This document shows, in pieces, positions 16,086 to 58,427 of a DNA stretch of 64,000 bases (position 1 is the first letter of the stretch; the number at the start of each line of letters is the position of its first letter). Source of the stretch: a virus; the IMG/VR virus record IMGVR_UViG_3300033553_000338, positions 1 to 64,000 of that record. One strand, written 5' to 3'. Position numbers and translations under genes: made by a program. A model generated the notes under the pieces. That model did no database searches, had not been told where the DNA came from, and saw nothing but the letters and a program-made list of their open reading frames with translations.

Positions 16086-16096
16086 TAATATACGAA
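16086..16096 (-). promoter_or_regulatory. Late promoter motif TTCGTATATTA
   Basis: An exact copy of the 11-base motif on the minus strand, in the 37-nt gap between the RNA polymerase gene and the 1308-residue gene, 22 nt from that gene's ATG. No terminator precedes it, so it probably boosts the last two genes. Confidence 0.6.
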
Positions 16097-16100
16097 ATAA

Positions 16101-19100
16101 TTAGCAGTCAGTCACATTTTTATTCGTAGAATCCACACCGGTAGCGGAGTACCCTTTACCAGTCTTTCCCTTACTTTTATCCTTGTAATAGACCGGCTCC
16201 ACTCTAATAAAAATCTCACTTTGATCTTCTAGTGGCTTACTGCCAAATTCGTCACTGGATGGGAAAGCACTCTCACCATAGTTTTTATGGATCAGGTTCG
16301 ACCCCAGAAACGGGTTTCTTACTTCCACCTGGTCATAGCTAACAAGAAAATGGGTTTTGTAATCAACCACGACCGCACGGATAAAGACATGGTGTTTTAA
16401 GTTTGGATCAAACGTCTTGACCATTACAATTTCAAAATCTGTACCTGCAGGAAGGTCCATAAGCTGTTTGCTTAGGCCTTCATCATAAGCCATCCCCGCA
16501 CTTTGGTCTGCCTCTATTGCCTGACTTGGATCATCCTCAATAGCATTCTCTGCATTGTAGGCTCCACCATCCGGATCCTGCTGGTCACCTGCTTTCTTTA
16601 TTTTATCTTCCCGCTTTTTCTTCAGCCCGGACAGGTCAATAAACTTTTGGTCAATCCGTCTTAAAGGATCCTCATACAATGCTTTCATGCCCACTTCTTC
16701 CCACGGCAAGGTTTTAACCTTAGAGGAATCGTAATAGCGGATAACAATCAAAGACTGCTTTAACCGGTCCTGGATCTTTTTACCCTTTGCCCCTCCATTG
16801 GTATAGTCCTGATAGTAGCCCTTTCGGAACTCGTTCAGCCCCTCCTGTAGCTTCACAGGAACATACTTGCTGAAGGTAGCTGTGTACATGTTGCTGGATT
16901 GTTGGATCAGGTCATAGAAGAAAAGTGCTTTTTGTGTACCTTCTTCGAGTTTACGAAACCATCCCATCATCCTCATCTTCGTGTTATCTCCAACCTTTTC
17001 ATTAAAAGAAGACAGGTATTTCATCGGCTCAGATCCCATGGCCATCGTCTTGCTGTTTTGGACTACCGATGAGATAAATTCATTCTGGTAGAACTCTGAA
17101 TCAGGATCATCATATCCCTGCTTCATCGACTCTATCTTGGAATTCATACTTTTTGCAAACCGGTTAATCCCACTGAGAGTGGTAAAATCATGAGTGGTTC
17201 CTTTAAAAACACCACTATTGAATTGCACCCTTCCAAGTTTATGCAGGTATTGGTAATTGATATCGGTGTTCACAGCAAGCTCCGTCTGCTTGTAAACCTC
17301 TTCGTTCACCCCATCCTTCTGGATACCATCCTTGTCAGTCAGGATGTCCTCAACGACATGATAAACATTTAGCATCTCGTCTCTCACCAGGTAAGAGTTA
17401 TCATAGAAAGAGTTGACAAACTCCATGTAGTGAGGATTGTTATTCAGCACATTTAACACATTGATCTGGACGTTTGGAAGCCTTCCAAATGCTTTAATCA
17501 TGTCAGCTCTTTTCTCAGGACTCGCTTTCACAAACTCCTGCAGAGAGATTTTCTTACTGTTTGGACTTTCTGATAAGATATCTTTCAGGTATTTATTCAC
17601 ATCCTGGAAGTACTTAAACATCCCGTGAGCATCGTTATTCAAACCCTGGTTGATCTTCGCGATCTTGGCAACCGTCTGGAGTTCTTTAGTCAGGCCCGAA
17701 AGCTGGTACCAAAAATCCCTCATTGGCTTACTCAACCCACTATCCTTTTTAGACAAGTGGGAAGACAGTGACCCAAACAATCCCTCATCCACAATTTGTT
17801 TGGCTTTCCGAATTGCAGCCGGAGAAAGGACCAGCTTAAAGATCTCATCAATAGGGACTCCCAGCATGATCATCGTAGCGATGTCGTTACCGGTGGCCAG
17901 GTTCGTATTGATGTAACCCAGAATAAGTTCCTTCGCGTTATCCGTACTGGCATTGATCAGGCCGGCCATGAAGTCCCAGGAGTGAGTGCTCTTTGAAATA
18001 ACATCCAAATGCTTGGACATCGCTTTCATAACTGCCTCATCGGTGATATCTTCTGGTTTTACAAAGATTCCGCTTGCCTGAACAAAGCTTTCCGCATTCC
18101 GCTTAATATCTTGGTTATGCTTCTCACGCAGACCGTCAAAGAAACTGACAGGTGTCAAGTTTGCGATGTTTTTGAATGGGTCATTAATCCCAGGAACCTT
18201 AAGGCCCCTTGGAAGGTGTGGTTTTAACACACCATGGTTTTTCTTAAAGTCCAGCATATCTGTCTGGAAACTCAGTGATATCGCAGACATGGCCTTAGCG
18301 GAAGAAGCCATCACCCCAACCATCTTGTTACCCACCTTATTGATGGTACTCAGCTTCACAACGGAAACAGGGCTCAGCAGGGAGAATAATCTTCCAGGGG
18401 CACCCTTGTCCTCGTTGGCCATCGCTCTTTGCTTAATTCCTTCAAGCATCCGGGGATTAACCGGAGTATTGGACTCCTCAATGTTCCGGGAGTCACTGGA
18501 CACCTTCATGATGTTATCCACCATCAGGTTCTGAAGTCCGGCAGCATACCAGTCATATTTACGGTTTTGACGAATCTCATAAGCATGTTCGCGCTTTAAA
18601 TAATCCTTTGGCAGGTATTCCCGAATTTCAGCTTTTGTCAGTGGAACCGTACCAGGGATATTTTTTACAGGGACTGGATTACCCAGTTCATCCATGGACC
18701 ATCCAAAGTAGTCAAACAGAAATCCCTGATCATCCTGATCCTTAATCATTAGGTAACCGGAGTCAATATCGAAATCCTCTCCTTTAATCACCATCGCATC
18801 AACTGGGATACCTACAGCATTGTTTAATGACTCCATGAAACCAACTACACGAACGGCATTGAAGGAGTGTTTTCCTGAGGTAGGAATACGGGGTAGTACC
18901 CCTTCCAGTGACTTCGAAAAGTCCTTGTGGATCCTATAGTACTTTGTGTACACTTTATCTGCCTTACGCATCGCACGGAGTACGTCATAATCAGATTCCG
19001 TGAGGCCCTTGACCTTCTTAAAGTTAGCCTTGTCCTTAATCAGCTTCTTCAGGTAGACTTTACGTTCAATTGGAATATCCGCATTGTCCGGATCCCGGAG

Positions 19101-22100
19101 GTACATGGTATGTAAACTATCAGGCTCACCGGTAACTTTTACGCCCAGCTCACCACGCTTTACCTTGTTCTCTTTATACCTCTCGAAGAAAAAGTTTTCA
19201 TTCTCCAGAATTTCCTGGAGGTTATCCCCTACCCCTAAGTGGTATTTCTTTTTCATGATCGGAGGCAAGACAATCTCCGCAGCATGGTGCTTTATTTTAG
19301 ATTCCGGGTTATTCAGCATCCGATTGTAAACAGCCAAAGCATCCTTGTGAAGTGCTTTACCCTCAGGACTCTCATCTTTGTATAACCGTTCCATTGCCTT
19401 AAACGCAGCAGAATCGCGAACGGTCATTCCAGCAACCACAGGATCTCCAATTTTGTAGACATAGTAAGCTTCCCCGTCAATCTCCATCTCATTAACGATG
19501 ATCTCCGGGTTGCTTGCTATAAACTCCTGGAAGGCTGTGTTCAATGAACTGCCCATCTTTACAACAGCGAACCCACCGGCATTCATCACAGCAGCAAAGT
19601 TATTGATATACTTTTCAAGAACTTTCTTATCTGGATCCTTCACCAAAGACTTGCTGTCAGCAAAATAGGTCACGCTGTCTTTTGCAGCTTCCATAAATTT
19701 AACTGTTCCCAGTGCTTTAGGAAGCTTTGCAGAGTTTGTGGCTGTGTGGTAAGCAACACTGTTTGCAATTCCAGCAGCAACATCTGTGGCCCCTGAAACG
19801 TTAAGCTCCTCTGCCCTACTAACCCGATCTTCCAGTACAGCCATGCTGAACTTATCAGACACCGCAGTAGACCCTTCCAGGAACTCGTGAGTATTCCAAT
19901 GAAGGTTCCTCGAAGTAATTTTCTGAGCTGCCATCTCTTCGCTGGTTGAGTCCACTGTAAGCCCCTTACCCTTCACATATACCCCATCAGCAGCAATGTA
20001 TTTCTCCAGCTCTATCCTGTTCATCATCATTGGAGCTTTACCTGGCCGTGGAACTTCATACATCGTATAGATGTCAGCAACCGGAGTCAAGGTCATCTTA
20101 CCCCCATTCATCCGAAGACGGACCGTAGCCTTCTCCACGATAGTGTTCAATTTGGATACCACCCGCTTTGCGATGTCTGGGTCATCATAGCTCCAGTTAC
20201 CCTGTATAAGTTTCTCCATGAAGTTATCGTAATTGTCCTCACGGAACTCGGATAGAATCATATCATCCTTTACGGCCTGAGCAATGTTCCCTTCATAAAG
20301 CTCTTTGATCAGTTCCATATTGTGCTTGCTCAGGTACCTGATAGCAGTAAGCACAGCGGTAACCTCAGCGAAATTTCGCCCCTCATTTGAGATGGAGGAA
20401 GTAACCTGGGTAGGTGCGTTAAGAGAGTTTCGAGTATCCTCAAAGTTGTGGTTAGCACTTAGCTGAATACCTGAATCAACCAAGGATAATTGAGTTGTTT
20501 CAATCGGCATAGCGTATGCTATACCCCCATCAGTTTTAACTTCCTTCCCTATATCACTCAGTTTCCCGTTGGTCTTTCTACTCCCATTTTTTACGGAAGT
20601 ATTCACCACAAGCATGGAAGTGTGCTGATTTGCAATGGCAGGATTCTGATACTCAATCTCCAGAATATCTTTCCACAGGTGTTCGTAGTGCAGAGGATCC
20701 ATACGTCCCGAGGGACCCATTTCAGCAAACTCCTGCATCACTTCCCACATATTATTGAACTTCCTCCCTTCAATGACCTTTGATAGATCATGCTTGCTGG
20801 AGTACTCAATAAACGTAGGTTCTGGGAAGTTCCTGCTAAACATCCGTTTAAGGATGTTGTACATATCTGTTTTACCGTTCCCCCTGGAATTTAAGGCCAC
20901 CTCTGCTGTGATCTGGTGCATGGCCATCTTCACAACCTGGTTGATCCCCCGGGTATGGTCCCTATTGGTGATAAAGGATTTGATGATCTCAGAGGATAAA
21001 GAAGAAAAATCATTTCCGTAAGACTCACGCCATTTCAACACATCCAGCGGAGTGATAAAGATTGCCCCATCCATAGCTTCCTGAGCTTTAACAGCTCCCG
21101 ATCCCATCACACTTACATCGATCTCCACATCATCCGTGTAGATCACATTGACTTTTGCAGGGAGTTTTCTTGAGCCCATCAACATACCTGTGGGATTCCC
21201 TTTAATGTCAAAGGCGTTATATTCAGATGTATTGATTGGCCGGCCCAACTCATCAACATCAGCCAGAATAGGGTGACTGTACTCTGCAGTGTTACTCACA
21301 TTACGCTTACCCATAGTCAGGAAGCTGTTATGCATGATTTCTTTCCAGTCTAAGCTGTTTGTTTTCGCATCATAGTCAAAAATATTCCCCTGGGTCAGTG
21401 ACAATAAACTCTGGGTAGCCATTGCATTAGCATAGAAGAAAGCCTCTAATCCCGGGTTGATCTGGACCTCCTTGTTTTCCATGACTACAGAAATCTTACC
21501 TGTGGACCAGAGTCTGTCTTTTGGTTCCACATCAGCCTCGTAGCGTTCACTGATTATCTTGGAAGACTTATCATCCAGCTTAATTTTCATCTCTGATAAT
21601 TCCCGAAGGAATTCATGGAATTTTTGATCCAGTACTTTGGAGATCTCGCCCTCGTCTGTATTGATGTACAGCCACTCGGTCATCCCCGAATTAGCCTGGT
21701 ATCCTTTGTTGCGTTTAATGTAATCCCTGTTCTTAACCAGTCCGGATGATGCAAGTTCGCTATCTGTAAACTTGGCCTGGGTAAAAATCTGGTGGATACT
21801 GTTCTTTAAGAACATTGCTGACTTAATGTGCATCTTTTCTTTCCTCTCCGCTTTTAGAAAATCGCGAATAAGATCCCTGTCAGATTCTAAAATCCTAATG
21901 GCACTTTCAACAGGTATCCGCTTAGTCTCTGATAAATACTTTGCAGCCTTGCCGCGAGCAGCCAGGTATAGCGCGGATGACTTCTCATTACCACGTAGAT
22001 GCCATACAATGACAGCTTCGGCAAATACAGAAGCATCCATATCCAACAACATATCCTTGGCCTGGTTGGACATGGTGTTGTAATAGGTAGCCTTCAATGA

Positions 22101-24641
22101 TTTTTTATTTGTAGGCATCAAACCAGACTTCATCTCAATCTCCGCTGGCATGTAGGTCTTCTTATCGGAGGGTGTGAAGAATTCAAAGAAGGCACTTCTG
22201 AATTCTGATTCCCTGGCAGACTGGAAAAACATCGTCAGATTAAACAAGGTTCCCTCTTTATCCCCCAGATCCCAGTGAGACTTATCATCCACCTTATTTT
22301 TAACTCCAAACCCACGTAATGCCATAGTACCGGCCTTGGAGGTGAAAGGGTTATTCGCGTAAACAGTATGCTTCATCCACTTCTCAGCTCCGGACTTTGC
22401 TTCATGGAAAAGTGAAATCTTACTCTGTAACGCCGAGATGTGCCTTGGGATTTTGTGAAGGGCTGAAGCCTTGCCATCAGACATGACTTTCTCTCCCTTA
22501 TCGTTCAACGCATAGACGGTTGTATCCACATCGGTCAGATCATTGATGGCATCCTTGAAAGCCACCAGGTCATCCATCAAGGTATGTGGGGGCATAATCA
22601 CCTTTCTCTCCAGAAGCTTGATATTCTGAGAGTAATACTCATCCTTCTTTCCAAACTCTTTAAAATTGGCAACGTCAGGCTTTATCGCATTTTGTGCATT
22701 AAGGGTTGATATACGAATTGCCTGCCCAATAAAGTTGGTGATCCCGTCTATTGAATGCCGGGAGATGAAACTCTCGCTTAGATTCCTCATGTATGGGATG
22801 CCCAGCTCACGTAAGATTTTGTCAAGCTGTCCGGGATCCGCTTCCGTACCCGGTTTCAGCTTCCAGATTCCTGTCGTATCATCCTCTGTAGCCTTTACAT
22901 TGACCAATTCAATTGTATCCTGATTAGTCCCAAACCGTATCTTGATCTTACTAGAGCTATTAGTAGGAAGAGCAAACCTTAGTTTTTTATTGATAAACTT
23001 AGAAGTCAGTTCCTCAAGGGATGCCTGTAACATCCCCTTGGTCATGTTTGTACTGGACTTGACATTCAGGCTACCTCCCTCAACAGAAATCCATCGACTC
23101 CTTTCTGTGGTCATTAAATAGCTCGTGAAGTCGGTTAAGATGTCCTCAGCTATCCTTGACTCTACCGACTGGCTTTCAAAACGGTTCGTACCGGGTATTC
23201 TTTTTCTACCATCCGTGTACACTCGATATAAGGAGCGAACTTTTAATCCCGAATTGCTATTCAAAATGTACTCATCTGGGTTAAAGTACCTGTTGTAGAG
23301 TGCTATAAATTTGGGATCCTTATTAAGAGTTTTATTCGACTGATAGTAATGGGTGAATCTTCTGGCAATATGTCCTATTGTTGGATGAGTCTTCCCAATT
23401 GTCCGGGTATCAATGATCCGGTTGATGTAATTTTTAGTAAGCGGAGAAGAATTTAAAGTCTCGATGAAGTTACTTACTGATCTAACATCCGTAGAACGTT
23501 CCTGATCAAGCGTATTGGCCATGATGATCCTGGAAACCTTGTTGGTGGAATCGAAGGCAGAGATTGCAGACTCATTCTCCCAAGACTGTTTATGCTCCCC
23601 TTGTATTTTATCCTCACGCAAGCTGATCGTGCCCTCTGCATCAAACTCAATAGCCCCACCAAACAGAGTGTCATGATTTAGCATGGTCTCAAATACGGTG
23701 TACATCACATAGTTGATGTAGGTGTCATGGTAGCTGGAGTTGTTATTAAGGAAATTCTCCAGCTGGCCCCAGGTCATCTTGCTGATATCGGAATTTCCCA
23801 TCAACAATTCCCTGGCCTTAAGGTAATCGCGTTCCATCTCCTGTTTCAGGGCAGCTAAATTCTTAGGAAGATTGGACTTTAACGCTGGGGTACCATTCGC
23901 ATTTATAATGGCCCGGTGAAAAACATTTCTCTGGAAGTTGCTTAATGCCTTCTCCGCAATGTGCTGATTTCCAGGAAACAGGTTAATATTGATTTTCCCC
24001 CAGGTCATACCTTTCTGGCCCAGTGTAACTTGCTCCTTCAGCTTGTCCTGCTGTTTGCGGAGTTGAGTAGCTTTTAACTTGTCCAATTCATCCAATGCAA
24101 CCTGGATGGCAGGATCCTGGTCGGATTCGGCAGATTTAGCCTTATCTAAAAGACTCATGCTCCCTTCTTCAACCTCATCTGAATCATCAGATAGTGCATC
24201 TGAAATGTTGTCAGCAGATTCTTCAGGCTCTTTCAGGCCGGCAGACTCTTCCAAAAAATTGATTTTCATGGCCCCATGAAAGTCAAAGATACTTTCAGAA
24301 AGGTCAAACACCGGAAGATTACTATCTCCAAACTCCACCTTAGCAATCGTCTGGATCTTGGCTGAGATAGCTGTTCCTGTATTAAGGGACTCCATTACCC
24401 TGACAGCTATTGACTGAGCATCCGTAGTAACTCGACCTCTACTTTCCAATATCCCCGAAACAATGAACTTTAGTCGGGTCATATCCTCGTCCAACATCCC
24501 TTTGGTGTCTACATTACCCAGTTTGGTACGTATTGCATTGACTATCCCCAAAGCAGTGTTTGGAATATCACTAATATCCGCAGTCGTTACGGCAAATCGT
24601 ATGCCGTTTCGATGTTCGTCATAATTAAATTTACAGCTCAT
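16101..24641 (-). CDS. Virion RNA polymerase of the crAss-like type (2846 aa, DFDID motif)
   Basis: A single-chain, multi-subunit-type RNA polymerase related to the crAss-like virion polymerase (phi14:2 gp66 type) and YonO. The catalytic motif GEDFDIDSG (D1956, D1958, D1960) holds the magnesium ions. It is preceded by RIPTSGK (1918-1924), which corresponds to the RxPT loop of the beta-prime subunit. A lysine-rich stretch (LPPIMKKKYHLGVG) upstream may be the beta-like barrel, with lower certainty. In this phage group the enzyme is carried in the particle, enters the cell and transcribes early genes. At 2846 residues it is longer than the ~2180-residue phi14:2 enzyme, and its first ~1600 residues have no assigned domain. 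It is third in an operon starting at 35804 and begins 1 nt after the previous gene. Confidence 0.88.
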   Translation of the reverse strand: MSCKFNYDEHRNGIRFAVTTADISDIPNTALGIVNAIRTKLGNVDTKGMLDEDMTRLKFIVSGILESRGRVTTDAQSIAVRVMESLNTGTAISAKIQTIAKVEFGDSNLPVFDLSESIFDFHGAMKINFLEESAGLKEPEESADNISDALSDDSDEVEEGSMSLLDKAKSAESDQDPAIQVALDELDKLKATQLRKQQDKLKEQVTLGQKGMTWGKININLFPGNQHIAEKALSNFQRNVFHRAIINANGTPALKSNLPKNLAALKQEMERDYLKARELLMGNSDISKMTWGQLENFLNNNSSYHDTYINYVMYTVFETMLNHDTLFGGAIEFDAEGTISLREDKIQGEHKQSWENESAISAFDSTNKVSRIIMANTLDQERSTDVRSVSNFIETLNSSPLTKNYINRIIDTRTIGKTHPTIGHIARRFTHYYQSNKTLNKDPKFIALYNRYFNPDEYILNSNSGLKVRSLYRVYTDGRKRIPGTNRFESQSVESRIAEDILTDFTSYLMTTERSRWISVEGGSLNVKSSTNMTKGMLQASLEELTSKFINKKLRFALPTNSSSKIKIRFGTNQDTIELVNVKATEDDTTGIWKLKPGTEADPGQLDKILRELGIPYMRNLSESFISRHSIDGITNFIGQAIRISTLNAQNAIKPDVANFKEFGKKDEYYSQNIKLLERKVIMPPHTLMDDLVAFKDAINDLTDVDTTVYALNDKGEKVMSDGKASALHKIPRHISALQSKISLFHEAKSGAEKWMKHTVYANNPFTSKAGTMALRGFGVKNKVDDKSHWDLGDKEGTLFNLTMFFQSARESEFRSAFFEFFTPSDKKTYMPAEIEMKSGLMPTNKKSLKATYYNTMSNQAKDMLLDMDASVFAEAVIVWHLRGNEKSSALYLAARGKAAKYLSETKRIPVESAIRILESDRDLIRDFLKAERKEKMHIKSAMFLKNSIHQIFTQAKFTDSELASSGLVKNRDYIKRNKGYQANSGMTEWLYINTDEGEISKVLDQKFHEFLRELSEMKIKLDDKSSKIISERYEADVEPKDRLWSTGKISVVMENKEVQINPGLEAFFYANAMATQSLLSLTQGNIFDYDAKTNSLDWKEIMHNSFLTMGKRNVSNTAEYSHPILADVDELGRPINTSEYNAFDIKGNPTGMLMGSRKLPAKVNVIYTDDVEIDVSVMGSGAVKAQEAMDGAIFITPLDVLKWRESYGNDFSSLSSEIIKSFITNRDHTRGINQVVKMAMHQITAEVALNSRGNGKTDMYNILKRMFSRNFPEPTFIEYSSKHDLSKVIEGRKFNNMWEVMQEFAEMGPSGRMDPLHYEHLWKDILEIEYQNPAIANQHTSMLVVNTSVKNGSRKTNGKLSDIGKEVKTDGGIAYAMPIETTQLSLVDSGIQLSANHNFEDTRNSLNAPTQVTSSISNEGRNFAEVTAVLTAIRYLSKHNMELIKELYEGNIAQAVKDDMILSEFREDNYDNFMEKLIQGNWSYDDPDIAKRVVSKLNTIVEKATVRLRMNGGKMTLTPVADIYTMYEVPRPGKAPMMMNRIELEKYIAADGVYVKGKGLTVDSTSEEMAAQKITSRNLHWNTHEFLEGSTAVSDKFSMAVLEDRVSRAEELNVSGATDVAAGIANSVAYHTATNSAKLPKALGTVKFMEAAKDSVTYFADSKSLVKDPDKKVLEKYINNFAAVMNAGGFAVVKMGSSLNTAFQEFIASNPEIIVNEMEIDGEAYYVYKIGDPVVAGMTVRDSAAFKAMERLYKDESPEGKALHKDALAVYNRMLNNPESKIKHHAAEIVLPPIMKKKYHLGVGDNLQEILENENFFFERYKENKVKRGELGVKVTGEPDSLHTMYLRDPDNADIPIERKVYLKKLIKDKANFKKVKGLTESDYDVLRAMRKADKVYTKYYRIHKDFSKSLEGVLPRIPTSGKHSFNAVRVVGFMESLNNAVGIPVDAMVIKGEDFDIDSGYLMIKDQDDQGFLFDYFGWSMDELGNPVPVKNIPGTVPLTKAEIREYLPKDYLKREHAYEIRQNRKYDWYAAGLQNLMVDNIMKVSSDSRNIEESNTPVNPRMLEGIKQRAMANEDKGAPGRLFSLLSPVSVVKLSTINKVGNKMVGVMASSAKAMSAISLSFQTDMLDFKKNHGVLKPHLPRGLKVPGINDPFKNIANLTPVSFFDGLREKHNQDIKRNAESFVQASGIFVKPEDITDEAVMKAMSKHLDVISKSTHSWDFMAGLINASTDNAKELILGYINTNLATGNDIATMIMLGVPIDEIFKLVLSPAAIRKAKQIVDEGLFGSLSSHLSKKDSGLSKPMRDFWYQLSGLTKELQTVAKIAKINQGLNNDAHGMFKYFQDVNKYLKDILSESPNSKKISLQEFVKASPEKRADMIKAFGRLPNVQINVLNVLNNNPHYMEFVNSFYDNSYLVRDEMLNVYHVVEDILTDKDGIQKDGVNEEVYKQTELAVNTDINYQYLHKLGRVQFNSGVFKGTTHDFTTLSGINRFAKSMNSKIESMKQGYDDPDSEFYQNEFISSVVQNSKTMAMGSEPMKYLSSFNEKVGDNTKMRMMGWFRKLEEGTQKALFFYDLIQQSSNMYTATFSKYVPVKLQEGLNEFRKGYYQDYTNGGAKGKKIQDRLKQSLIVIRYYDSSKVKTLPWEEVGMKALYEDPLRRIDQKFIDLSGLKKKREDKIKKAGDQQDPDGGAYNAENAIEDDPSQAIEADQSAGMAYDEGLSKQLMDLPAGTDFEIVMVKTFDPNLKHHVFIRAVVVDYKTHFLVSYDQVEVRNPFLGSNLIHKNYGESAFPSSDEFGSKPLEDQSEIFIRVEPVYYKDKSKGKTGKGYSATGVDSTNKNVTDC

Positions 24642-35804: not shown

Positions 35805-35826
35805 ATAAATACTGTATGTTAGAATT

Positions 35827-35837
35827 AAATATACGAA
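35827..35837 (-). promoter_or_regulatory. Late promoter motif TTCGTATATTT
   Basis: A one-base variant of the motif, 22 nt upstream of the ATG at 35804 and downstream of the terminator at 35888-35926. It would drive the 621-residue, helicase and RNA polymerase genes. Confidence 0.6.
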
Positions 35838-40253: not shown

Positions 40254-40293
40254 CTCTTGAATATTTTAGTTCGAACTTTTATTCGTTAAGAAG

Positions 40294-40304
40294 TAATATA
40301 CGAA
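40294..40304 (-). promoter_or_regulatory. Late promoter motif TTCGTATATTA
   Basis: An exact copy on the minus strand, 4 nt beyond the stop of the DUF192 gene and 40 nt before the ATG of the Pro/Ala/Gly-rich gene. Confidence 0.6.
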
Positions 40305-42187: not shown

Positions 42188-42204
42188 AGTTTAACTGTTT
42201 ATTA

Positions 42205-42215
42205 TAAGATACGAA
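42205..42215 (-). promoter_or_regulatory. Late promoter motif TTCGTATCTTA
   Basis: A one-base variant of the motif, 17 nt upstream of the ATG at 42187 and between the muzzle gene and the cysteine-cluster gene. Confidence 0.55.
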
Positions 42216-48200: not shown

Positions 48201-49123
48201 ACAGGGGTTTTCTGTATTGGGGAATAAACCCAGGTATCACTTAACAATCCACCCCATCCGGAAAATCCACCCATGTTTGCGGTTTCCATGGTAATAGGCA
48301 TTGTTTCAGTGATATCACTGGTATGAGTCAACTTGTCCCTGTCAGCCTCACTGGAATCCTCTGGGTCGGGCTCCGGATTAAATTGCGCTTGATTAATGGA
48401 GTCGTTGTTCCACTGATCGTATGGCGTGATGCCTACATTGTTGGAGCTAACCACCGGAGTTGTTTTATAGTCCGGGTCTGCAATTATAAAGTAGGTGATG
48501 TTGTTGAATGTCTTTGTTCCTAATATGATCTTATCTTCTGACGGTCCCACATTCTCACTTTCGTTGGAAGTCATCTCGGAGAAATAATCGATGGTGCCTA
48601 CCTGGTATCCAATTACCGGAACTCCGTGAACCTGATAATCGATGGAAGCAATGTACTTATCCGGGTTTACTCCAAGCTTAAAGCGGTCACCCTCTGAGTA
48701 CAGGTGCAGTAAAATTGTTTCTACATAAGCAGCGGAGCCATCGGTATAGCTCACAGTGATATCCATGTAGTAATTGTCCAGGCCCTTAAGCTTACTGAGC
48801 ATGTCGGTTCCAGGAGCATATACAAAATAGGACTCCTTGAATTTTACAGGATCCGCACCCATGTCCACTGAAGAGGCTATATCTCTTGTCAGGAGCTCCT
48901 TCTGAAACATCTCAACAACGTTATCCGTTTTGTTGTAATGCTTCTGGTACAGGGAAGTGACCGGGATGGTAGACTTGAGGGACTGGTAAACAAACTTACT
49001 CCCACTCTCCGGAGAGATGGTTACGTTCACGGCATCCAGTAAGGTATCCGGCTGAATTTTAGCCATGTCCCTGTCTGAGATTATCCCGCTGAGAAGGTTA
49101 TTCTCGCTTGTATTTCTTTGCAT
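42233..49123 (-). CDS. Tail stabilisation/muzzle-type protein (2296 aa)
   Basis: The N-terminus ISDRDMAKIQPDTLLDAVNVTI and a C-terminal segment YGIDADHGKIWRTDGSMFEII / SDNRIEVLLKGFLYEM match the crAss-like stabilisation protein (P22 gp10-related), the protein that forms the muzzle around the tail. Around residues 480-600 is a fibronectin type III-like domain (SAQFSWTKPNDSNVNAYEV). Further repeated beta-rich domains make it much longer than usual family members. A large insertion of this kind may enlarge the tail tip or carry receptor-binding parts. The gene overlaps the preceding small gene by 26 nt and belongs to the operon that starts at 49852. Confidence 0.85.
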   Translation of the reverse strand: MQRNTSENNLLSGIISDRDMAKIQPDTLLDAVNVTISPESGSKFVYQSLKSTIPVTSLYQKHYNKTDNVVEMFQKELLTRDIASSVDMGADPVKFKESYFVYAPGTDMLSKLKGLDNYYMDITVSYTDGSAAYVETILLHLYSEGDRFKLGVNPDKYIASIDYQVHGVPVIGYQVGTIDYFSEMTSNESENVGPSEDKIILGTKTFNNITYFIIADPDYKTTPVVSSNNVGITPYDQWNNDSINQAQFNPEPDPEDSSEADRDKLTHTSDITETMPITMETANMGGFSGWGGLLSDTWVYSPIQKTPVGDKIPADGNYVFNVTATAEAKMKHKSWRHVAVYARLRVEREDGSEYTPGYPSDVIPYRNEDWLIGDKYRGSSSISKNGSVTLRDLKKGDQIHLEIQGEARSKGEVKLSLEASAYSTTTHLVETKDALVSDIYSNLNTLLKSVVVTPATSNLHSNGKVEIITAVENLVPGELLTYPANIPSLKTKTTALKSYSAQFSWTKPNDSNVNAYEVQYVVSDNANHQVASEAEWKSLGTTAETSFSVDVANISKKLTDYKYYVWFRVAPRNAYYLGSWSGGYYRFTITKVWTGLSMYRFDNRIDTFKVDSRANDPAVASWAIGSKPVEDSGYEFAIDYSDFRPVDPDGNGVIYGLPPGSYSLYVRRFQSGKYLYAKKSITVDSTRKFEDLELQVSVDMSGDKKVSNFDLLVTVHDPSNASGGYNIFISPYTYLDEKNIHNLVPIATINGDTETRIPLNQVMGHEGTLNIYAVNSNDRDELYIGGLTYLSGRQTKDSTTYFKRIVRSSILVTENFKGNWYNLEIGTFPSPYYGHPKGKLIEVYQPLQNLNEAAFITDQIKLSGNSYVELEIQPVYDGSVNVIFTDGEHAPRVINSGFSARKDSEYEIVRRSGGKESNRYFSETVEISTRLVQTEDAIPQSEVLEVTSSGGCLEVGGYKLLFTLSTVDGNETDFIAETGLIPIMFGDTLGSIQGGETASRTTKAIKVALTGIDNYFNHVNVYIDLATGVNQLVKNFYKVNYQYLIKGPEVGITLTGFEPREVAPAAKLDEQKLPISSIKTIAQIQNRLIVGNFTHEDIDYNKLFKVGTSIIVTPSMGNDRNKFTDFMEAWPGDSEDVNLQTFSTSFYNEKLKKFRSGSLDSQNILDIQETLNLSRTQGYHNPLFVERYAAYWPKETYVYSVSFISNNNFITRPIPITGADYIGMDFNPLMFDNNKEVIESFNQSREESNNPSDGSWFTSGNYTFNNLGVCRFPKQRKPNQVFFPKFVFDLNKMSEEYPGFLDQFKGFFFTRSKRRPDILMQAFLGPVHSTLTDKTVIRDEDPTKYIPTVNNSVNSFKACVPSLFTGLGIMAYEHCVSLSGDDMNWGIKEYNHAGAFIASMVSDKSASESYEDNYQYNEFVDKVPVYKYWLKSGDIFGNFAQAAADFNGKPFGMSLVSSIDTSSYSRFTSTRNILRYLSDVEDVSSLGFETRDEHILQALKPSKLMTENTKTAIKVVPDFRAYGQNTRSPGGFSSLIPFRSLGRIITNEEGQQVLTYLTGAYTPYVGCSAKEELKTGFYDLYPDIAGPISQETLQVIYGSNNNDQHIAITPKMKLKDFINKRVSVAFGTRGDCFITTTVHNVARSLPAISGSPSSNSPQFTGLGQGTTEPNSYRAAAASMSIMATHASNYLNYARHNEIKDEAESASYGGPRTFLPLAGASDSVLRISNGAKQEETTAFNQGFKDNFQGRKYYAVSGSAPFYAKKGANTVAFSGTMSRNSFYNAYRDFDLAASKTYGSEMGEINRMIEYRNNLIVVHSKGTYLVGVNDRELVNGDPNNPVYTKSSNVLSEKPSPLSAKFGSKFPRSVEKSDRFVYGIDADHGKIWRTDGSMFEIISDNRIEVLLKGFLYEMKGKSEIPGERYIASFYDSSKREMVFTIYDKDSQHPNFDTLMQPDVYFFLKNLHNAGLATSGGDLVKSKDLLYHWAEEGWYGEDHSMNHLRREDRIRYVELFLEIYAKIAPGFNSKINNCVTIIYNEDLDIWVTRWSVAPEFMFNHNGTMYSIANKQDTAELPSTTLKFIQDIETGIIAGGSSEILRVNSSLYAPGDSLRRLIWKHEGFNPAIPMFGSFYGKDPVVEFTLAIAQNPTMLKNFEMLTLISNHATPSNIMYVLSGDNPLLNHVMSAPDTRKYGSWEEAEAGYFNHFGVLGDRSVTYPAMFFRQEVRDRRFNPISRANAFYSPGKLEIVMSKGLQPMFISQDAWSRMKFRHFQDSAIKVSIRYESGEEVKVYGIVTTFSA

Positions 49124-49400
49124 ATTGCTCTTTTTTAGACTCTCGTAAATTATTCAGCCGAAGCTTGTTGATGAAATATCGCTCTTTCTTTGACTCCGCT
49201 GTCCGCTGGCTCCTGTAAAAAATGATCCGGTACTTGTCAAAGTTCGCGTTGTTACTTTCTAAACGGACATCGTGGTCCCGGTGAATCAAAGACTGGAGAT
49301 TGGACATCCCTTTCTTTACAATCTTGATAATGGACTCTCGCTCGATGTCGGGATACATGCTTTGCAGATCCTCAATATAATTCTTGTAATTTTTTACCAT
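49098..49400 (-). CDS. Small basic virion/assembly protein, possible crAss-type IHF-like subunit (100 aa)
   Basis: A Lys/Arg-rich helical protein beginning MVKNYKNYIEDLQSMYPDIE and with IIKIVKKGMSNLQSLIHRDHDV. In crAss-like genomes two small genes between the capsid and the stabilisation protein have been called integration host factor-like subunits. This protein and its neighbour sit at that position and fit by size and charge. The homology is by pattern and place only. It overlaps the 152-residue gene by 7 nt and the muzzle gene by 26 nt. Confidence 0.5.
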   Translation of the reverse strand: MVKNYKNYIEDLQSMYPDIERESIIKIVKKGMSNLQSLIHRDHDVRLESNNANFDKYRIIFYRSQRTAESKKERYFINKLRLNNLRESKKEQYAKKYKRE

Positions 49401-49852
49401 ACTCCAATGTTGTTGCTGTACCGTTTTCCTTCATGGAGATTTCGCATCATCTTGGAATACCGTTGTTTATCGAAAATTACCCTAAACTTGTGGCTTGATC
49501 TGTTGGAAGACTTAAATCGGTAAGTAGGTGCATGAGGGGCCTCAACCATTGCATTGTCAAAGGTTTCCATCTGGTTGTTCTCACGCATACGCTTGAGGGC
49601 AAACTCCGGAATCTTCTCAATATATAGCTTCGCATCGTATGCCGGGAACTCAAACACATCACCTTCCACAACATCATCCATCACCAGGTTCATAAAACTG
49701 TGGAACACCCCACGAGCAAGCCGGCATTTATCTGACTTACCATAAGTACGGGCCAGTCTTCCCTTTCCCTTCACAAAGTCATACTTCTCGTAATCAGGGA
49801 ACAGATCCCCTACCCTGGCCATGTGGTTTTTATGGTGTATTTTCTTATCCAT
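49394..49852 (-). CDS. Possible crAss-type IHF-like subunit or tail connector protein (152 aa)
   Basis: A basic protein whose core CRLARGVFHSFMNLVMDDV, then VEGDVFEFPAYDAKLYI resembles the HU/IHF-like arrangement reported for two small crAss-like proteins, with basic flanks (RFKSSNRSSHKFRVIF). The promoter motif lies only 7 nt before the ATG, so its message may have almost no leader. The first gene of an operon with the 100-residue and muzzle genes. An alternative is a tail connector protein. Confidence 0.5.
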   Translation of the reverse strand: MDKKIHHKNHMARVGDLFPDYEKYDFVKGKGRLARTYGKSDKCRLARGVFHSFMNLVMDDVVEGDVFEFPAYDAKLYIEKIPEFALKRMRENNQMETFDNAMVEAPHAPTYRFKSSNRSSHKFRVIFDKQRYSKMMRNLHEGKRYSNNIGVW

Positions 49853-49859
49853 TAAGGAT

Positions 49860-49870
49860 TAATATACGAA
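49860..49870 (-). promoter_or_regulatory. Late promoter motif TTCGTATATTA, joined to a terminator
   Basis: An exact copy on the minus strand, 7 nt before the ATG at 49852. It follows the T tract of a hairpin terminator, and 25 bases (49860-49884) are identical to 51391-51415. Confidence 0.65.
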
Positions 49871-49884
49871 AAAAGCCGGACTTA
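49860..49884. repeat. 25-bp direct repeat, copy 1 (promoter plus half terminator)
   Basis: Twenty-five bases identical to 51391-51415: the late promoter motif and the left arm of the following terminator. The identical unit before two different operons suggests duplication or strong selection of the whole module. Confidence 0.8.
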
Positions 49885-49897
49885 AGGAAGCCGGCTT
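49869..49897 (-). terminator. Rho-independent terminator joined to the promoter motif
   Basis: On the minus strand AAGCCGG pairs with CCGGCTT around an 11-base loop, followed by TTTTTT that runs into TTCGTATATTA. It ends the 237- and 246-residue tail gene operon. Confidence 0.8.
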
Positions 49898-50632: not shown

Positions 50633-51373
50633 TTAGCTGATTTTATCGGCCATGTCTGAAGCTTGAATTGGTGCGTTCATTTGCCGGTAGTAAGTAAGAT
50701 ATCGTTGGGTGATGGTTTCTATAATCTGCAGGATGAGCTGGTCCGGAGCTGCCAAGGCAACTATGTCCTCAACAATACCGTTGGCTACCTGGCAGCACTT
50801 GTATTCATAGATTGCATAAGGATCCCGAAACACTGCTGTAAGGGCAATGGATTTCAGGTACTCCGGAATATTGTATAGATAAGCTTTGTGGTATCCTTGC
50901 TCTGCAGATCCCAGTACCGCGTAGGGCCTGGCTGCTGAAGGTAACAATACCCTGGCCCGATGGCTCTCCCCAAAGTAAATCTTCCAGCTGTACCTGGTCC
51001 TCCGGGAATCCCCAAAGAAGGAATACAGCGGCATGCTTCCTATGCGGAGCATTTCCGGGATACGGACATATTTCACAAGGCTCCCCTCCTCATCAATTTC
51101 AAAACCACTCCCCTCACAACAATCCGATGGATCCCCTTCCAGGATATCCAAACATCCTACGGATTGACTGGCTGGGGTCATCTGAAAACCTTTGGCACAG
51201 GGGCTCCCGTCCGGGGAAAATCCTGCGGTAACCAACGTATTTCTTAACAGCTTAATCTCCTGACGAAGCTGCTCCTTCGGGATGGGTGTATTAGGACTCC
51301 CATGGAGCCCGTCCAGAACATTGTTCATGATTGCATCTGCAATGGCAGATTCTGACCAAACTATCTCATTCAT
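50633..51373 (-). CDS. Putative tail/neck structural protein (246 aa)
   Basis: Begins with a helical N-terminus (VWSESAIADAIMNNVLDGL) and contains a CC-bearing acidic segment (PSDCCEGSG), a Pro/Arg-rich centre and a helical C-terminus (LILQIIETITQRYLTYYRQM). Cysteines are present at several sites (CLDI, CC, KCCQ). It is the first gene of a two-gene operon under the motif at 51391-51401 and fits a tail ring or connector protein by position. No known domain is recognised. Confidence 0.5.
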   Translation of the reverse strand: MNEIVWSESAIADAIMNNVLDGLHGSPNTPIPKEQLRQEIKLLRNTLVTAGFSPDGSPCAKGFQMTPASQSVGCLDILEGDPSDCCEGSGFEIDEEGSLVKYVRIPEMLRIGSMPLYSFFGDSRRTRYSWKIYFGESHRARVLLPSAARPYAVLGSAEQGYHKAYLYNIPEYLKSIALTAVFRDPYAIYEYKCCQVANGIVEDIVALAAPDQLILQIIETITQRYLTYYRQMNAPIQASDMADKIS

Positions 51374-51390
51374 ACTTAATGGTTATGATT

Positions 51391-51401
51391 TAATATACGA
51401 A
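51391..51401 (-). promoter_or_regulatory. Late promoter motif TTCGTATATTA, joined to a terminator
   Basis: An exact copy on the minus strand, 17 nt upstream of the ATG at 51373 and directly after a terminator T tract. Confidence 0.65.
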
Positions 51402-51415
51402 AAAAGCCGGACTTA
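51391..51415. repeat. 25-bp direct repeat, copy 2 (promoter plus half terminator)
   Basis: Identical over 25 bases to 49860-49884. See that entry for the reading. Confidence 0.8.
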
Positions 51416-51429
51416 TTAAAGCCCGGCTT
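51400..51429 (-). terminator. Rho-independent terminator joined to the promoter motif
   Basis: On the minus strand AAGCCGG pairs with CCGGCTT around a 12-base loop, followed by TTTTTT into TTCGTATATTA. The left half is identical to the copy at 49860-49884. It ends the operon of the 273- and 287-residue genes. Confidence 0.8.
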
Positions 51430-52335: not shown

Positions 52336-53157
52336 TTAATCTACTTGCTGCTTTGTTCTCGGTCCCTTCTTAGTGGTGGCAGCAGCTTCGCCATACACTT
52401 CAGGATTAATTTCTTTTTTGATCTGATTTAAGATCTCTGTGTTTGAAGGATTCTGAAGGTAGCTGATCACAGCATCTTCGTTACCTCCCAGCGGCATGGT
52501 ACCATAAATGAATACCCCGTTTTTCTTTTCAATGACTCCCAGGTCACACGCTCTGTAGAATACCAGAGTCGTAGCAGCTGATCCCTTCTCATACACATCC
52601 AGTACCCGTGCAACTCCATCACGCTCCCGTAAAAGGTGAAGCAGGAATTTTTTGGCACTACCAGGAGATTCCCCGGCCATATCGATACCCAACAGACGGG
52701 CACGGCCAATCAACAGTTCAGGACTATCCTTGTGGACGTACTCCTGGGCTTTGAAGAATCTATCTTCAGTCTCCAGCTCTTTCTGGACCTCAACATCCTC
52801 GTTGAAAACGTAAAACAAAGCATCCTTGGATTGCTGAGCATCATCGAAGCTCATGGCAATTTTTGGATCATGTTGGGCCATGGCCCATAACATACGGTCT
52901 TCGAACCGTTCCAGGTTAAACTGGTAATCATTACGGGCAGTGAAGTGTGTTTTACCAGTGGTAAAAAAGGTCAATTTTTTCTTGTCTTCATCACTAAGTA
53001 CCGGAACGCCTAATAGCCTACCTGTACTGCGGTCCTTTGTGGGTTCAATACGTGCCTTTTGCTCTTTGAAGAACAAGGTCTTTAGCGTGATGATTCCCGT
53101 TTCAGGAATTCCCCTCAGCACATCCTGCGCTGAAATGGGTAAATCTTTCATTTCCAT
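52336..53157 (-). CDS. Structural protein next to the major capsid protein (273 aa)
   Basis: A charged helical protein directly downstream of the major capsid gene. The N-terminus EMKDLPISAQDVL is followed by a KTLFFKEQKARIEPTKD segment. The middle is acidic and helical, and the C-terminal part ends in a TTKKGPRTKQQVD tail. A head or packaging role is inferred from location. No family recognised. It is the first gene after the terminator/promoter unit at 53216-53253, with an unusually long 58-nt leader between motif and ATG. Confidence 0.5.
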   Translation of the reverse strand: MEMKDLPISAQDVLRGIPETGIITLKTLFFKEQKARIEPTKDRSTGRLLGVPVLSDEDKKKLTFFTTGKTHFTARNDYQFNLERFEDRMLWAMAQHDPKIAMSFDDAQQSKDALFYVFNEDVEVQKELETEDRFFKAQEYVHKDSPELLIGRARLLGIDMAGESPGSAKKFLLHLLRERDGVARVLDVYEKGSAATTLVFYRACDLGVIEKKNGVFIYGTMPLGGNEDAVISYLQNPSNTEILNQIKKEINPEVYGEAAATTKKGPRTKQQVD

Positions 53158-53215
53158 ATAAATTGCATTTAAACATTAAACATTTTTTCTTTTCACTAAT
53201 TTAATCATTATTCTC

Positions 53216-53226
53216 TATTATACGAA
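53216..53226 (-). promoter_or_regulatory. Late promoter motif TTCGTATAATA, joined to a terminator
   Basis: A one-base variant of the motif on the minus strand, directly after the terminator hairpin that ends the capsid gene, and 58 nt upstream of the next ATG. Confidence 0.6.
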
Positions 53227-53253
53227 ACACCCGTCAGAAAAAGATCTGACGGG
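53226..53253 (-). terminator. Rho-independent terminator after the major capsid gene
   Basis: On the minus strand CCCGTCAGA pairs perfectly with TCTGACGGG (nine pairs) around a six-base loop, followed by TGTTTCG, a short T tract. It lies 33 nt beyond the capsid stop. Confidence 0.75.
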
Positions 53254-55949: not shown

Positions 55950-56789
55950 TTATTGCTGAGGCTGCTGTTGCTGGATACCTCCTTGAGGTGGCACCGACTG
56001 GTTTACTGCTGAGTAATTCTGTGCAATTGGGTTGTTGTTCCCAAAGGCGATCAGTACCACAGCCTCTTTGATAATTTCGTGACAGACATCTTCTTTGAAC
56101 TCCATGATTTGAGAGCCATCGATCAGGGTATTCAGTTGATCGTTTGTCAAGACGATCTCCATAGGGTACTTGATAAAGTCACAATGGACTTTGGTCAATT
56201 CAAACACCCCCGCGATATCTCCTGCAGTCCGTACAATATTGGCATCTGGGCCAAAAGTCACCGACAGCTTGCTCCCAGGAGTATCCCCCTGCCCTGCCGT
56301 TGCTTGCCAACCCCCGGATTCAATCTTGAAATAAGGATTCCGGTAAGACGGTTTCAACCAGGCATTCTGTAAAATCAAGCTTTCTTTATCAGATGACAGC
56401 GGCTTGGCCGGCATACTGAAAGAAGAACCTGCCGGGTAACATTTGTACCCTGTCTTCACAGTGTATTCCAAAATGCAGTTAAGCATGTGGAAATAGGTAT
56501 TTGGAAGCTTACCGGTAAAGTAGTAGTTACTACCTTTCCGTTTGAAGCTCAGTTCATTCTCCGCTGGGTTGTCGTAATCTAAGGGTGCTGAGAACTCATA
56601 GTTCATCTTAAGCACCTGGACATCATCGGTAGTCTGCTGGTTGGTGTCATACACATTATACCTTTTCTGGGTCCATTGATAAACGGACTTATTGATATAG
56701 TGATTGAAATCCTCAAGCAGCAGATCCGGAGTTCCGTAATTCTTATTCAACTCAATCAGGATAGCTTCAAATACGTCTCTTGCTGTCAT
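55950..56789 (-). CDS. Head-tail/neck structural protein of crAss-like phages (279 aa)
   Basis: The N-terminus FEAILIELNKNYGTPDLLLE, then FNHYINKSVYQWTQKRYNVYDTNQQ matches a conserved structural protein of crAss-like gene sets near the capsid. The centre is beta-rich, and the end is Gln/Pro-rich (GGIQQQQPQQ). It overlaps the upstream 70-residue gene by 4 nt and lies 38 nt upstream of the scaffold gene. The exact place in the virion is not assigned. A neck or ring position is an inference. Confidence 0.65.
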   Translation of the reverse strand: MTARDVFEAILIELNKNYGTPDLLLEDFNHYINKSVYQWTQKRYNVYDTNQQTTDDVQVLKMNYEFSAPLDYDNPAENELSFKRKGSNYYFTGKLPNTYFHMLNCILEYTVKTGYKCYPAGSSFSMPAKPLSSDKESLILQNAWLKPSYRNPYFKIESGGWQATAGQGDTPGSKLSVTFGPDANIVRTAGDIAGVFELTKVHCDFIKYPMEIVLTNDQLNTLIDGSQIMEFKEDVCHEIIKEAVVLIAFGNNNPIAQNYSAVNQSVPPQGGIQQQQPQQ

Positions 56790-56998
56790 TTATTCCACTT
56801 ATTTTGTTTACACAATTTTTTTGATCTAGTCAGTGACGGAAGGAAACACCCACAGGATGTACACCAGTTCCCGTCCCTCAAACTACACGCTGCACAAACT
56901 CTTAATCTTTGCTGGGCCAATTCTTCAACATTGTTATCAGAAGTTCTTCCGATAGATAAAGCGTAATTGACGTATCCCTCTATAATGTGTTTTAGCAT
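56786..56998 (-). CDS. Small cysteine-rich zinc-ribbon-like protein (70 aa)
   Basis: Six cysteines, at 35, 38, 46, 49, 51 and 63, in the pattern CAACSLRDGNWCTSCGCFL...KLC, which fits a small zinc-binding fold. The N-terminal half is helical (GYVNYALSIGRT). It is the first gene of the head operon under the motif at 57013-57023, 14 nt upstream. Similar short Cys-rich proteins occur next to structural genes in many phages. Their function is unknown. Confidence 0.6.
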   Translation of the reverse strand: MLKHIIEGYVNYALSIGRTSDNNVEELAQQRLRVCAACSLRDGNWCTSCGCFLPSLTRSKKLCKQNKWNK

Positions 56999-57012
56999 TG
57001 TATGTTAAGAAA

Positions 57013-57023
57013 TAATATACGAA
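57013..57023 (-). promoter_or_regulatory. Late promoter motif TTCGTATATTA
   Basis: An exact copy on the minus strand, 14 nt before the ATG at 56998. It should drive the zinc-ribbon, neck, scaffold and major capsid genes as one operon. Confidence 0.6.
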
Positions 57024-57759: not shown

Positions 57760-57787
57760 AAAAAACAAAAGGCGGTATAGACCGCCT
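57760..57787 (-). terminator. Rho-independent terminator of the 91-residue gene
   Basis: On the minus strand AGGCGGT pairs with ACCGCCT around a four-base loop, followed by TTTGTTTTTT. It lies 5 nt beyond the stop of the 91-residue gene. Confidence 0.85.
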
Positions 57788-57792
57788 GTTAG

Positions 57793-58068
57793 TTACCTCA
57801 TTCGGTTGTAAGAGTCCAGGAGGGTTTCAATTCTTACGATCCGCTTACCCTGGTCTGTCTGTACAATAAGCAAGTCATCATACTTCACTGTAAGAAAATC
57901 GTTTTTGTCTTTGATGTTGTCAACTTTTTCGGCAACATTCTTAGTACCATTATCAATATGTTGCTTGATAAGAGCCACATCGGTCTTAATACTAATGATG
58001 GACAGCGAGGACCAGCTGAGAAGACCTATCAATACTGTTCCTATAATTCCCAGGTACCAATCCCTCAT
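57793..58068 (-). CDS. Membrane-anchored coiled-coil protein, possible spanin-like (91 aa)
   Basis: An N-terminal hydrophobic helix (WYLGIIGTVLIGLLSWSSLSI) is followed by a helical coiled-coil region (IKQHIDNGTKNVAEKVDNI) and a basic C-terminus. This layout fits an inner-membrane spanin or another anchored periplasmic coil. A lysis role is only suggested by the layout. It is the second gene of an operon that starts at 58371 and ends at a terminator. Confidence 0.5.
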   Translation of the reverse strand: MRDWYLGIIGTVLIGLLSWSSLSIISIKTDVALIKQHIDNGTKNVAEKVDNIKDKNDFLTVKYDDLLIVQTDQGKRIVRIETLLDSYNRMR

Positions 58069-58074
58069 AACTTA

Positions 58075-58371
58075 TTACACTACAGAATCAAACAATAAAG
58101 GATCCTGAAAGATCGCCAGGACACCAACTTTCATACTCTCGTTCAGCCCCGAGAGATCATCAGTAGCGGTCTGATTTACATTTCCGTAAAAATTGATTCC
58201 GTCACTGGTATGCAGGTCTGCTACGTGCCGGCCTTCTGCCGCCTTAGCGGAACACATTACGGTATCTTTGAGGATTCCACCGGTTAAGTTATACCTGTAT
58301 GTGATATCAAACTCGTTAAAGGTATCAGATAATTCAATCTGTTCTACCCTAGATTTTAGTGATAATGCCAT
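58075..58371 (-). CDS. Protein of unknown function (98 aa)
   Basis: A beta-rich protein with segments FNEFDITYRYNLTGGILKDT and HVADLHTSDGINFYGNVN. No known family. It is the first gene under the motif at 58417-58427 and is 6 nt upstream of the coiled-coil gene. The regular strand pattern suggests a small structural domain. Confidence 0.5.
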   Translation of the reverse strand: MALSLKSRVEQIELSDTFNEFDITYRYNLTGGILKDTVMCSAKAAEGRHVADLHTSDGINFYGNVNQTATDDLSGLNESMKVGVLAIFQDPLLFDSVV

Positions 58372-58416
58372 GGGAATAATTTGTTTTTAGTTACTAAACT
58401 TTTAATGATATAATAG

Positions 58417-58427
58417 TAATATACGAA
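58417..58427 (-). promoter_or_regulatory. Late promoter motif TTCGTATATTA
   Basis: An exact copy on the minus strand, 45 nt upstream of the ATG at 58371, preceded by eight A on that strand. Confidence 0.6.

Follow-up and report, generated by a model that had tools for sequence, protein, structure and literature searches.

Phage promoters that consist of one short conserved signal have been described in several systems. In T7, one phage signal with small variants stands before both replication and late genes (class II/III promoters). In T4, late promoters have a single box, TATAAATA, near -10 and no -35 element, and they are used by the host core enzyme with gp55/gp33. The early promoter of AR9 was given as AAATATATATTAT-(6N)-G+1 (PMC5312081), and that of the phiKZ group as an AT-rich sequence of about 10 nt centred near -10 (PMC7598289). 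In P23-45, a strongly conserved AT-rich motif was assigned to gp96, a virion RNA polymerase compared with gp66 of crAss-like phages (PMC10770324). Here, we describe a promoter-like element of about 25 bp, TTYGTATAWYA-N3-CTTAAY-N3-YA, in a crAss-like phage record of 157,880 bases (IMG/VR IMGVR_UViG_3300033553_000338). The window, which is the whole stretch of DNA analysed at the outset, covers positions 1-64000 of this record. Element positions are counted from the first T of TTYGTATA as position 1, and single sites are named by the coordinate of that base.

The TerL, capsid and ring proteins of the record match those of crAss-like phages. TerL matched 134 phage records and also crAss001 itself (E 1e-33), and among the 30 TerL matches listed, most are crAss-like by name. 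The capsid protein matched 23 phage records, and one protein of the record matches Pfam PF25702 (CrAss_Ring_2). Genes were called by a simple rule, i.e., open reading frames (ORFs) starting with ATG and having at least 60 amino acids (aa). The genome reads well with the standard genetic code (coding fraction 0.84), and intergenic DNA makes up 7.7% of the record. Minus-strand genes, including the virion and polymerase genes, occupy about 4-79 kb (the minus module), and the region of about 80-158 kb has mostly plus-strand genes (the plus module), among them those for DNA polymerase, ligase, helicase, ribonucleotide reductase and RNase H.

A sequence-only reading of the window had pointed out nine minus-strand copies of an 11-base motif, six exact and three with one change, each intergenic and 7-58 nt upstream of a start codon, and all of these details proved correct in a motif search. 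When at most one mismatch was allowed, 11 matches were found in the window, whereas 100 shuffles gave a mean of 0.95 and a maximum of 5. The two copies beyond the nine, each with one mismatch, are at 22707-22717 (-) and 36188-36198 (+). Across the whole record, TTYGTATAWYA occurs 19 times (8 plus, 11 minus) against once for its reversed control (1 plus, 0 minus), and the 11-mer with one mismatch occurs 22 times (5 plus, 17 minus) against 2 and 3 for the reversed control. The shorter word TTYGTATA is intergenic at 26 of its 36 occurrences (binomial p ~1e-21), and at 23 of these 26 the next gene lies on the same strand; the reversed word occurs 13 times, 4 times between genes and twice with a same-strand next gene. 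The exceptions are 2743, 110037 and 40304, the last being counted as such because a plus-strand ORF was called over a likely 96-aa gene. De novo word counts upstream of ORFs gave the same picture: TTTCGTATAT was the top 10-mer, with 19 occurrences within one mismatch, none antisense and 1.1 expected (z 14.2), and in the plus module alone the top 10-mer was TCGTATAACA (z 7.7).

The same counts change the scope of what had first been proposed. The motif had been called strand-specific and taken to organise the late region. Its strand specificity holds in the window, but in the record as a whole there are plus-strand copies too, before plus-strand genes at about 82-158 kb that include the DNA-metabolism genes, RNase H and the cluster of transfer-messenger RNA (tmRNA) and tRNA genes. 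Specificity for late genes or for the minus strand was thus rejected. Taken literally, copies on both strands across the genome speak against the motif as first read; however, the plus-strand copies precede plus-strand genes, and therefore late specificity falls, whereas the promoter interpretation does not. The element is organised by gene direction rather than by region.

The element is longer than the 11 bases first noted. In the 26 intergenic sites, which were chosen on TTYGTATA only, downstream columns 9-11, 15-20 and 24-25 are conserved, with a maximum of 1.08 bits where the 99.9% null is 0.43; columns 9 (0.43) and 15 (0.42) are at that line. Among these sites A is found at position 18 in 21, A at 19 in 24, T or C at 20 in 25, T or C at 24 in 25, and A at 25 in 21. 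CTTAAY with at most one change lies at offset 15 in 15 of the 26 and at any other tested offset in at most 3. Of ten TTYGTATA copies within coding sequences (CDS), two have CTTAAY at this offset, namely 22717 and also 119282, which sits at the extreme end of its gene. Upstream of the element, conservation is at most 0.36 bits in every column between -59 and 0, so that the earlier claim of no conserved -33 partner is borne out. At the three sites folded (49870, 51401 and 53226), a hairpin resembling a terminator stops 2-3 nt short of the element; terminator-like sites overall were not clearly commoner than in shuffles. For whole-record scoring, a 34-column model refined under a permissive threshold came to match AT-rich noise and was replaced by a 20-column model, which gave 45 sites above 12 bits. 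In addition, 32 sites (18 minus, 14 plus) were picked by eye as a curated list; the TTYGTATA and TTYGTATAWYA counts are independent of it, and three of its members (42215, 69003 and 2743) are not in the top 75 of the 20-column model.

Small variants follow the shared TTCGTATA core. AACA was found in the plus module only, and the minus module has mostly ATTA. In a post hoc comparison of 30 sites, which omitted 82462 (minus, TT), 22717 (minus, C at position 10) and 2743 (plus, C at position 10), TT at positions 9-10 was present in 10 of 17 minus and 1 of 13 plus sites (p 0.007), and C at position 10 in 0 of 17 and 7 of 13 (p 0.0008). Five sites on both strands (53226, 66676, 74827, 93347 and 148646) combine TATAATAG at 5-12 with SATTAAA at 21-27, a subclass likewise recognised post hoc (5/8 vs 4/24, p 0.02).

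Start codons limit where transcription can begin. They were assigned for 29 of the 32 curated sites; the three left out are 79803, 93347 (RNA genes) and 2743, whereas 22717 belongs to neither set. Three were set by hand, all with open frames: 66676 (GTG), 129703 (TTG) and 40304. The start codons lie 26-143 nt from the first base of the element, and since the nearest is at position 26, transcription should start at or before 26. For 49870 and 6600, the second in-frame ATG was used because the first, at position 19, lies inside the element; if position 19 is nevertheless the right one, transcription would start at or before 19. Two assignments are well supported, that of RNase H at 148678 (position 2 of the profile falls on residue 2, and an in-frame TGA directly precedes the ATG) and that of ORF 50633-51373, whose N-terminus is equal in length to that of a relative. 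With a transcription start at 18, one of 29 leaders would be shorter than 10 nt and the median would be 31; with a start at 25, 8 of 29 would be that short. In Bacteroides thetaiotaomicron, leaders have a median of 32, and about 3.7% are shorter than 10 nt (PMC7366714). The combined fit favours positions 17-19, as a bound only, and the start appears to be placed best near 17-18; published starts of the phiKZ/AR9 type lie about 6 nt past the box.

The features that can be read directly from the DNA, i.e., the element, its strand coherence, the fixed bipartite spacing, the copies before RNA genes, the lack of an upstream partner and the start-codon bound, suggest that the element is in all likelihood a promoter. 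It is probably a dedicated phage promoter used genome-wide and not in the late region only, and with good confidence we take it not to be an ordinary host sigma-A promoter. The 11-base box would be recognised at about -17 to -7, with nothing upstream of it needed, and transcription would start about 6 nt past the box in the conserved TTAA, at the A of position 18 or perhaps 19. In this manner the element may start many plus-module operons (DNA metabolism, tmRNA) and minus-module operons (virion, RNA polymerase), where middle and late are labels taken from gene content and not from measured timing. Small changes after the TTCGTATA core may tune timing or strength. The suggestion that the motif is promoter-like, oriented with the downstream gene and plausibly served by a phage-encoded or phage-modified polymerase is supported to this extent.

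The comparison with known systems is consistent with such a promoter. Like the early promoters of phiKZ and AR9, which belong to the virion RNA polymerase, it has a conserved AT-rich box of about 10 nt (10-13 nt there) with no -35 partner, and those promoters, too, were found by bioinformatics alone. It differs from them in sequence, in its second half CTTAAY-N3-YA, and in its genes, which are plus-module and virion genes here but early or continuously expressed genes there. Moreover, the phiKZ/AR9 enzymes are multisubunit, whereas the one polymerase candidate here is of the crAss type, although no search was aimed at phiKZ-type subunits. The gp96 promoters of P23-45 are similar in their strongly conserved AT-rich motif, and gp96 has been likened to crAss-like gp66; that motif, however, was assigned to pre-early genes, which lie at the left genome end, and the likeness drawn here is one of description. 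One signal with variants recalls T7 class II/III promoters, but no T7-type single-subunit polymerase is among the Pfam matches of 126 ORFs here. A single box near -10 without a -35 element is shared with T4 late promoters; no gp55/gp33-type factor was found in the ORFs scanned, and the element is not late-specific. Compared with N4-type hairpin promoters, the hairpins at the three folded sites look like terminators.

Which enzyme reads the element is a separate question. The phage very probably encodes a crAss-type RNA polymerase, because its 2846-aa ORF has a DxDxD motif whose three Asp are invariant in a four-row alignment with crAss001 Gp50, phi14:2 gp66 and the relative G001, because the ORF is similar to Gp50 (BLASTP E 9e-06), and because the phi14:2 stretch matches PDB 6vr4. 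A search of the whole ORF against PDB sequences did not recover the crAss-type polymerase, and the ORFs of the polymerase region gave one chance-like match (E 0.036) and otherwise none. A structure predicted from the single sequence of a 600-residue polymerase stretch had a mean pLDDT of 35 and was not used. This polymerase may be the reader of the element, at slightly less than even odds. A bolder version is a possibility rather than an expectation: the giant crAss-type (QDE-1-like, two-barrel) enzyme could read replication and late operons via this promoter, with two to three versions (TATAACA, TATAATA...ATTAAA and TATATTA) setting the timing. If true, this would be the first promoter sequence proposed for a crAss-type polymerase in a crAss-like phage, as far as the literature searched shows (no crAss promoter motif was found in it; the phi14:2 polymerase paper lay outside that search), and it would run counter to the idea that the host polymerase is needed for late crAss genes. 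With a defined 25-bp element in front of plus-module operons, of virion operons and of RNA genes, the polymerase question becomes testable with one synthetic promoter. The element would also serve as a marker of operon starts in an uncultured phage and as a way into the question of how, and by which polymerase, the genes of the abundant crAss-like viruses are transcribed.

Several observations weigh against a phage promoter read by the phage's own enzyme. The reversed 20-column model still gives 11 sites above 12 bits. At about 130-145 kb, the plus module consists mostly of small plus-strand ORFs and is without a convincing copy on the coding strand; no other strong motif was found in that region. 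One full copy (22717) lies inside a CDS, and 42215, 69003, 79803 and 2743 are without the downstream half, so that the site listed at 42205 (first base 42215) is a weak member. The remaining points concern the host enzyme. Late genes of crAss001 and phi14:2 are thought to be read by the host polymerase (PMC8375218, PMC10136315), and the host core might here be redirected by a phage factor (sigma-like, of the T4 MotA/AsiA or gp55 type), with the box as a -10-only promoter. Terminator-like hairpins directly adjoin three copies, which suggests that the enzyme responds to intrinsic terminators; the host core fits this arrangement as well as or better than a phage polymerase. CGTATA also resembles the -10 of some extracytoplasmic function (ECF) sigma factors, which counts for the same explanation. 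A CGT box in the -10 region was ascribed to ECF factors in Flavobacterium psychrophilum (PMC9723704). However, Pfam scans of 126 of the 180 listed ORFs found neither a sigma/appropriator family nor a T7-type polymerase, and no Sigma70_r2 match was found in the record at E<=10, although such factors may be too divergent to be seen. The E limit was 0.05 in one Pfam scan and 0.001 in the others; 54 ORFs, including giant ones, were outside these scans, most giant ORFs being scanned with PHROGs only and ORF 42233-49123 in no family scan. We regard a redirected host core as a real though less than even prospect.

The ordinary sigma-A promoter of Bacteroidota (TTTG at -33, TAnnTTTG at -7) is a quite unlikely reading, even though part of the geometry agrees with it. 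TTYG (positions 1-4) and YA (24-25) sit at about -35 to -32 and -12/-11 of such a promoter, the TTYG-N19-YA spacing matches that of the -33 and -7 boxes, and an exact TAnnTTTG occupies 24-31 in copies 148646 and 92327. This placement is a real point for a host-derived origin of the element, but the sites were selected on TTYG, and 22 of 26 have TTCG. With 24-31 as a degenerate -7 box, which lies at -12 to -5 (PMC9723704), the transcription start would be at 36, and 9 of 29 start codons would then lie upstream of the transcript, among them the two well-supported ones (RNase H and ORF 50633-51373); the same source gives 5.5% as leaderless. Columns 28-31 carry 0.34, 0.07, 0.05 and 0.17 bits, so the TTTG of the -7 box is not conserved, while the non-host TATAWYA and CTTAAY are. 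Thus, the -7/-33 reading was set aside as largely refuted by start-codon positions and column conservation, and the difference from the host TAnnTTTG box that had been stated from the sequence stands. The accompanying claim, that this host box instead precedes early minus-strand genes, comes down to one TTG-N-TAnnTTTG site on the minus strand in the window (3025-3003). Across the record, TTG-N17-21-TAnnTTTG is intergenic six times against two for the reversed pattern (including 3025 (-), 69250 (+), 153035 (+) and 153658 (+)), and TAnnTTTG by itself shows no enrichment in gaps, with 14 intergenic occurrences where the reversed word has 21. A model with host promoters at a few operons and the element at many others fits, its host part being thin.

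It is very unlikely that the element is no promoter at all but a translation signal, an operator, or a mark for replication or packaging. A palindrome, TTAATSATTAA at 16-26 in 66676, 74827, 93347 and 148646 (53226 has it with one change), would suit an operator. On the other hand, the intergenic copies point at a same-strand gene as described above, and their start codons keep no fixed distance of the kind expected for translation. Copy 93347 (+) lies 70 nt before a permuted tmRNA match at the head of the tRNA cluster, and therefore a translation signal does not explain the element. The tmRNA itself, at record 93417-93717 (+), matches Rfam RF04321 with 67.5 bits (gathering 47), and ARAGORN gives its tag as GKTIPLFSNAQVRLAA. 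Finally, the promoter of a host alternative sigma factor of the ECF type has CGT inside the box and the abundance of such factors in Bacteroidota (PMC7366714) in its favour, but it is highly improbable, as no -35 partner is conserved from -59 to 0 and, at three sites, a terminator-like hairpin lies where that partner would be.

The earlier suggestion to look for the motif in related genomes gave no excess in any other record searched. In a two-sequence terminase alignment, the best 80 of 140 relatives were kept, with a best identity of 37%; relatives by the capsid protein alone were not confirmed in viral contigs. TTCGTATAWYA was found in 7 of 25 whole records (22 of the 80 loci plus MT835470, MT835492 and L100), with 11 matches against 37 for the reversed pattern. 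The bipartite pattern, of which this record has six exact copies and none reversed, matched 15 stretches of viral contigs once each; when 14 of these 15 records were searched whole with TTYGTATAWYA, none was clearly above control. The remaining match, in L100, was rejected because it falls within a CDS of a dissimilar phage. The pattern also matched 113 stretches of genome contigs, and among the 80 listed there was one match each, in many phyla. The relative with the most similar terminase, G001 (37%), has matches to 22 ORFs of this phage at 23-45% identity and does not share the element. When nine further crAss-like genomes were each read with the genetic code that suited them best, de novo word counts revealed no such motif. 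The top words were from the tRNA T-arm (z up to 9.0, the best non-homopolymer value), the host-like TATCTTTGCA in crAss001 (7.4) and weaker words, compared with 14.2 in the present genome, and the T-arm words on top indicate that the method works. Homopolymer-like words were excluded in the final counts (before exclusion, poly-T in crAss001 had z 14.5), and earlier counts with the standard code (one also with TAG read through) fail for recoded genomes. In this comparison, the sequence used for G006 stopped 3.3 kb short of the end, and those of crAss001 and phi14:2 had gaps between stretches, from a few hundred bases to 2,700. Within the collections searched, therefore, this is a real and strong promoter-like element seen in one record, from the sequence of which we infer its function.

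Table 1. Copies of the element and associated features in the window
Feature	Position	Strand	Context
Doubtful TTCGTATA copy, poor downstream half	2743..2767	+	Intergenic, antisense to small ORF 2757-2963
Element TTAGTATAATA, full CTTAAT half, two mismatches in 11-mer (6590-6600)	6576..6600	-	Before thymidylate synthase ORF 5515-6582; not in the earlier list
Promoter-like element	16072..16096	-	Before 1308-aa ORF 12137-16063, start codon at element position 34
2846-aa ORF, candidate catalytic subunit of crAss-type RNA polymerase	16101..24641	-	GEDFDID, DxDxD from residue 1956
Element, full CTTAAT half	22693..22717	-	Inside 2846-aa ORF, sense orientation
Element	35813..35837	-	Before 621-aa ORF 33939-35804, head of ORF run ending in RNA polymerase ORF
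One-mismatch 11-mer copy	36188-36198	+	Inside CDS on other strand
Element, full CTTAAC half	40280..40304	-	Before 96-aa ORF (start position 52) overlapping plus-strand ORF
Variant TTCGTATCTTA without CTTAAY half, weak member	42191..42215	-	Before 421-aa ORF 40922-42187, start position 29
Element, full CTTAAT half	49846..49870	-	2 nt past terminator-like hairpin, before ORF 49394-49852
Intrinsic-terminator-like hairpin	49873..49897	-	Abuts element 49846..49870
Element	51377..51401	-	2 nt past terminator-like hairpin, before ORF 50633-51373, start position 29
Intrinsic-terminator-like hairpin	51404..51429	-	Abuts element 51377..51401
Element, TATAATA...ATTAAA subclass	53202..53226	-	3 nt past terminator-like hairpin, before ORF 52336-53157
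Terminator-like hairpin	53230..53253	-	Abuts element 53202..53226
Element, full CTTAAC half	56999..57023	-	Before ORF 56786-56998, start position 26
Element	58403..58427	-	Before ORF 58075-58371, start position 57

Some single copies deserve mention. The copy at 22693-22717 within the polymerase ORF could start a shorter product or be there by chance. At record 82327-82493, element-like copies at 82351 (+) and 82462 (-) face each other between divergent genes; each reads across the other, and both carry ACAACATCGA after the element. At record 110011-110037, the element is an imperfect palindrome, so that a TTTGTATA copy reads on the opposite strand too. Next to the tmRNA, a tRNA match at record 93754-93893 (+) extends over 140 nt and thus has a large insertion, and its anticodon loop, by eye, is like that of Phe (GAA). 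Literature on permuted tmRNA and phage includes, in the part covered here, work on a marine methylophage.

Other observations concern the relatives and neighbouring material. Reading TAG through lifts the coding fraction from 0.42-0.48 to 0.84-0.90 in G005, G006 and MT835492, and reading TGA through lifts it from 0.47-0.59 to 0.84-0.86 in G008 and G012; on coding density, these five are crAss-like relatives with reassigned stop codons. In stretch L013, a Rep3-type plasmid replication initiator (PF01051/PF21205; L013:9963-10964 (-)) lies beside iteron-like direct repeats (L013:11073-11307), and together they look like a plasmid-like origin in a phage. Proteins of stretches L010-L013 match Tad2-like and Acb2/Tad1 hairpin anti-defence families, the ArdC N-terminal domain, and RIIA/RIIB-like proteins.

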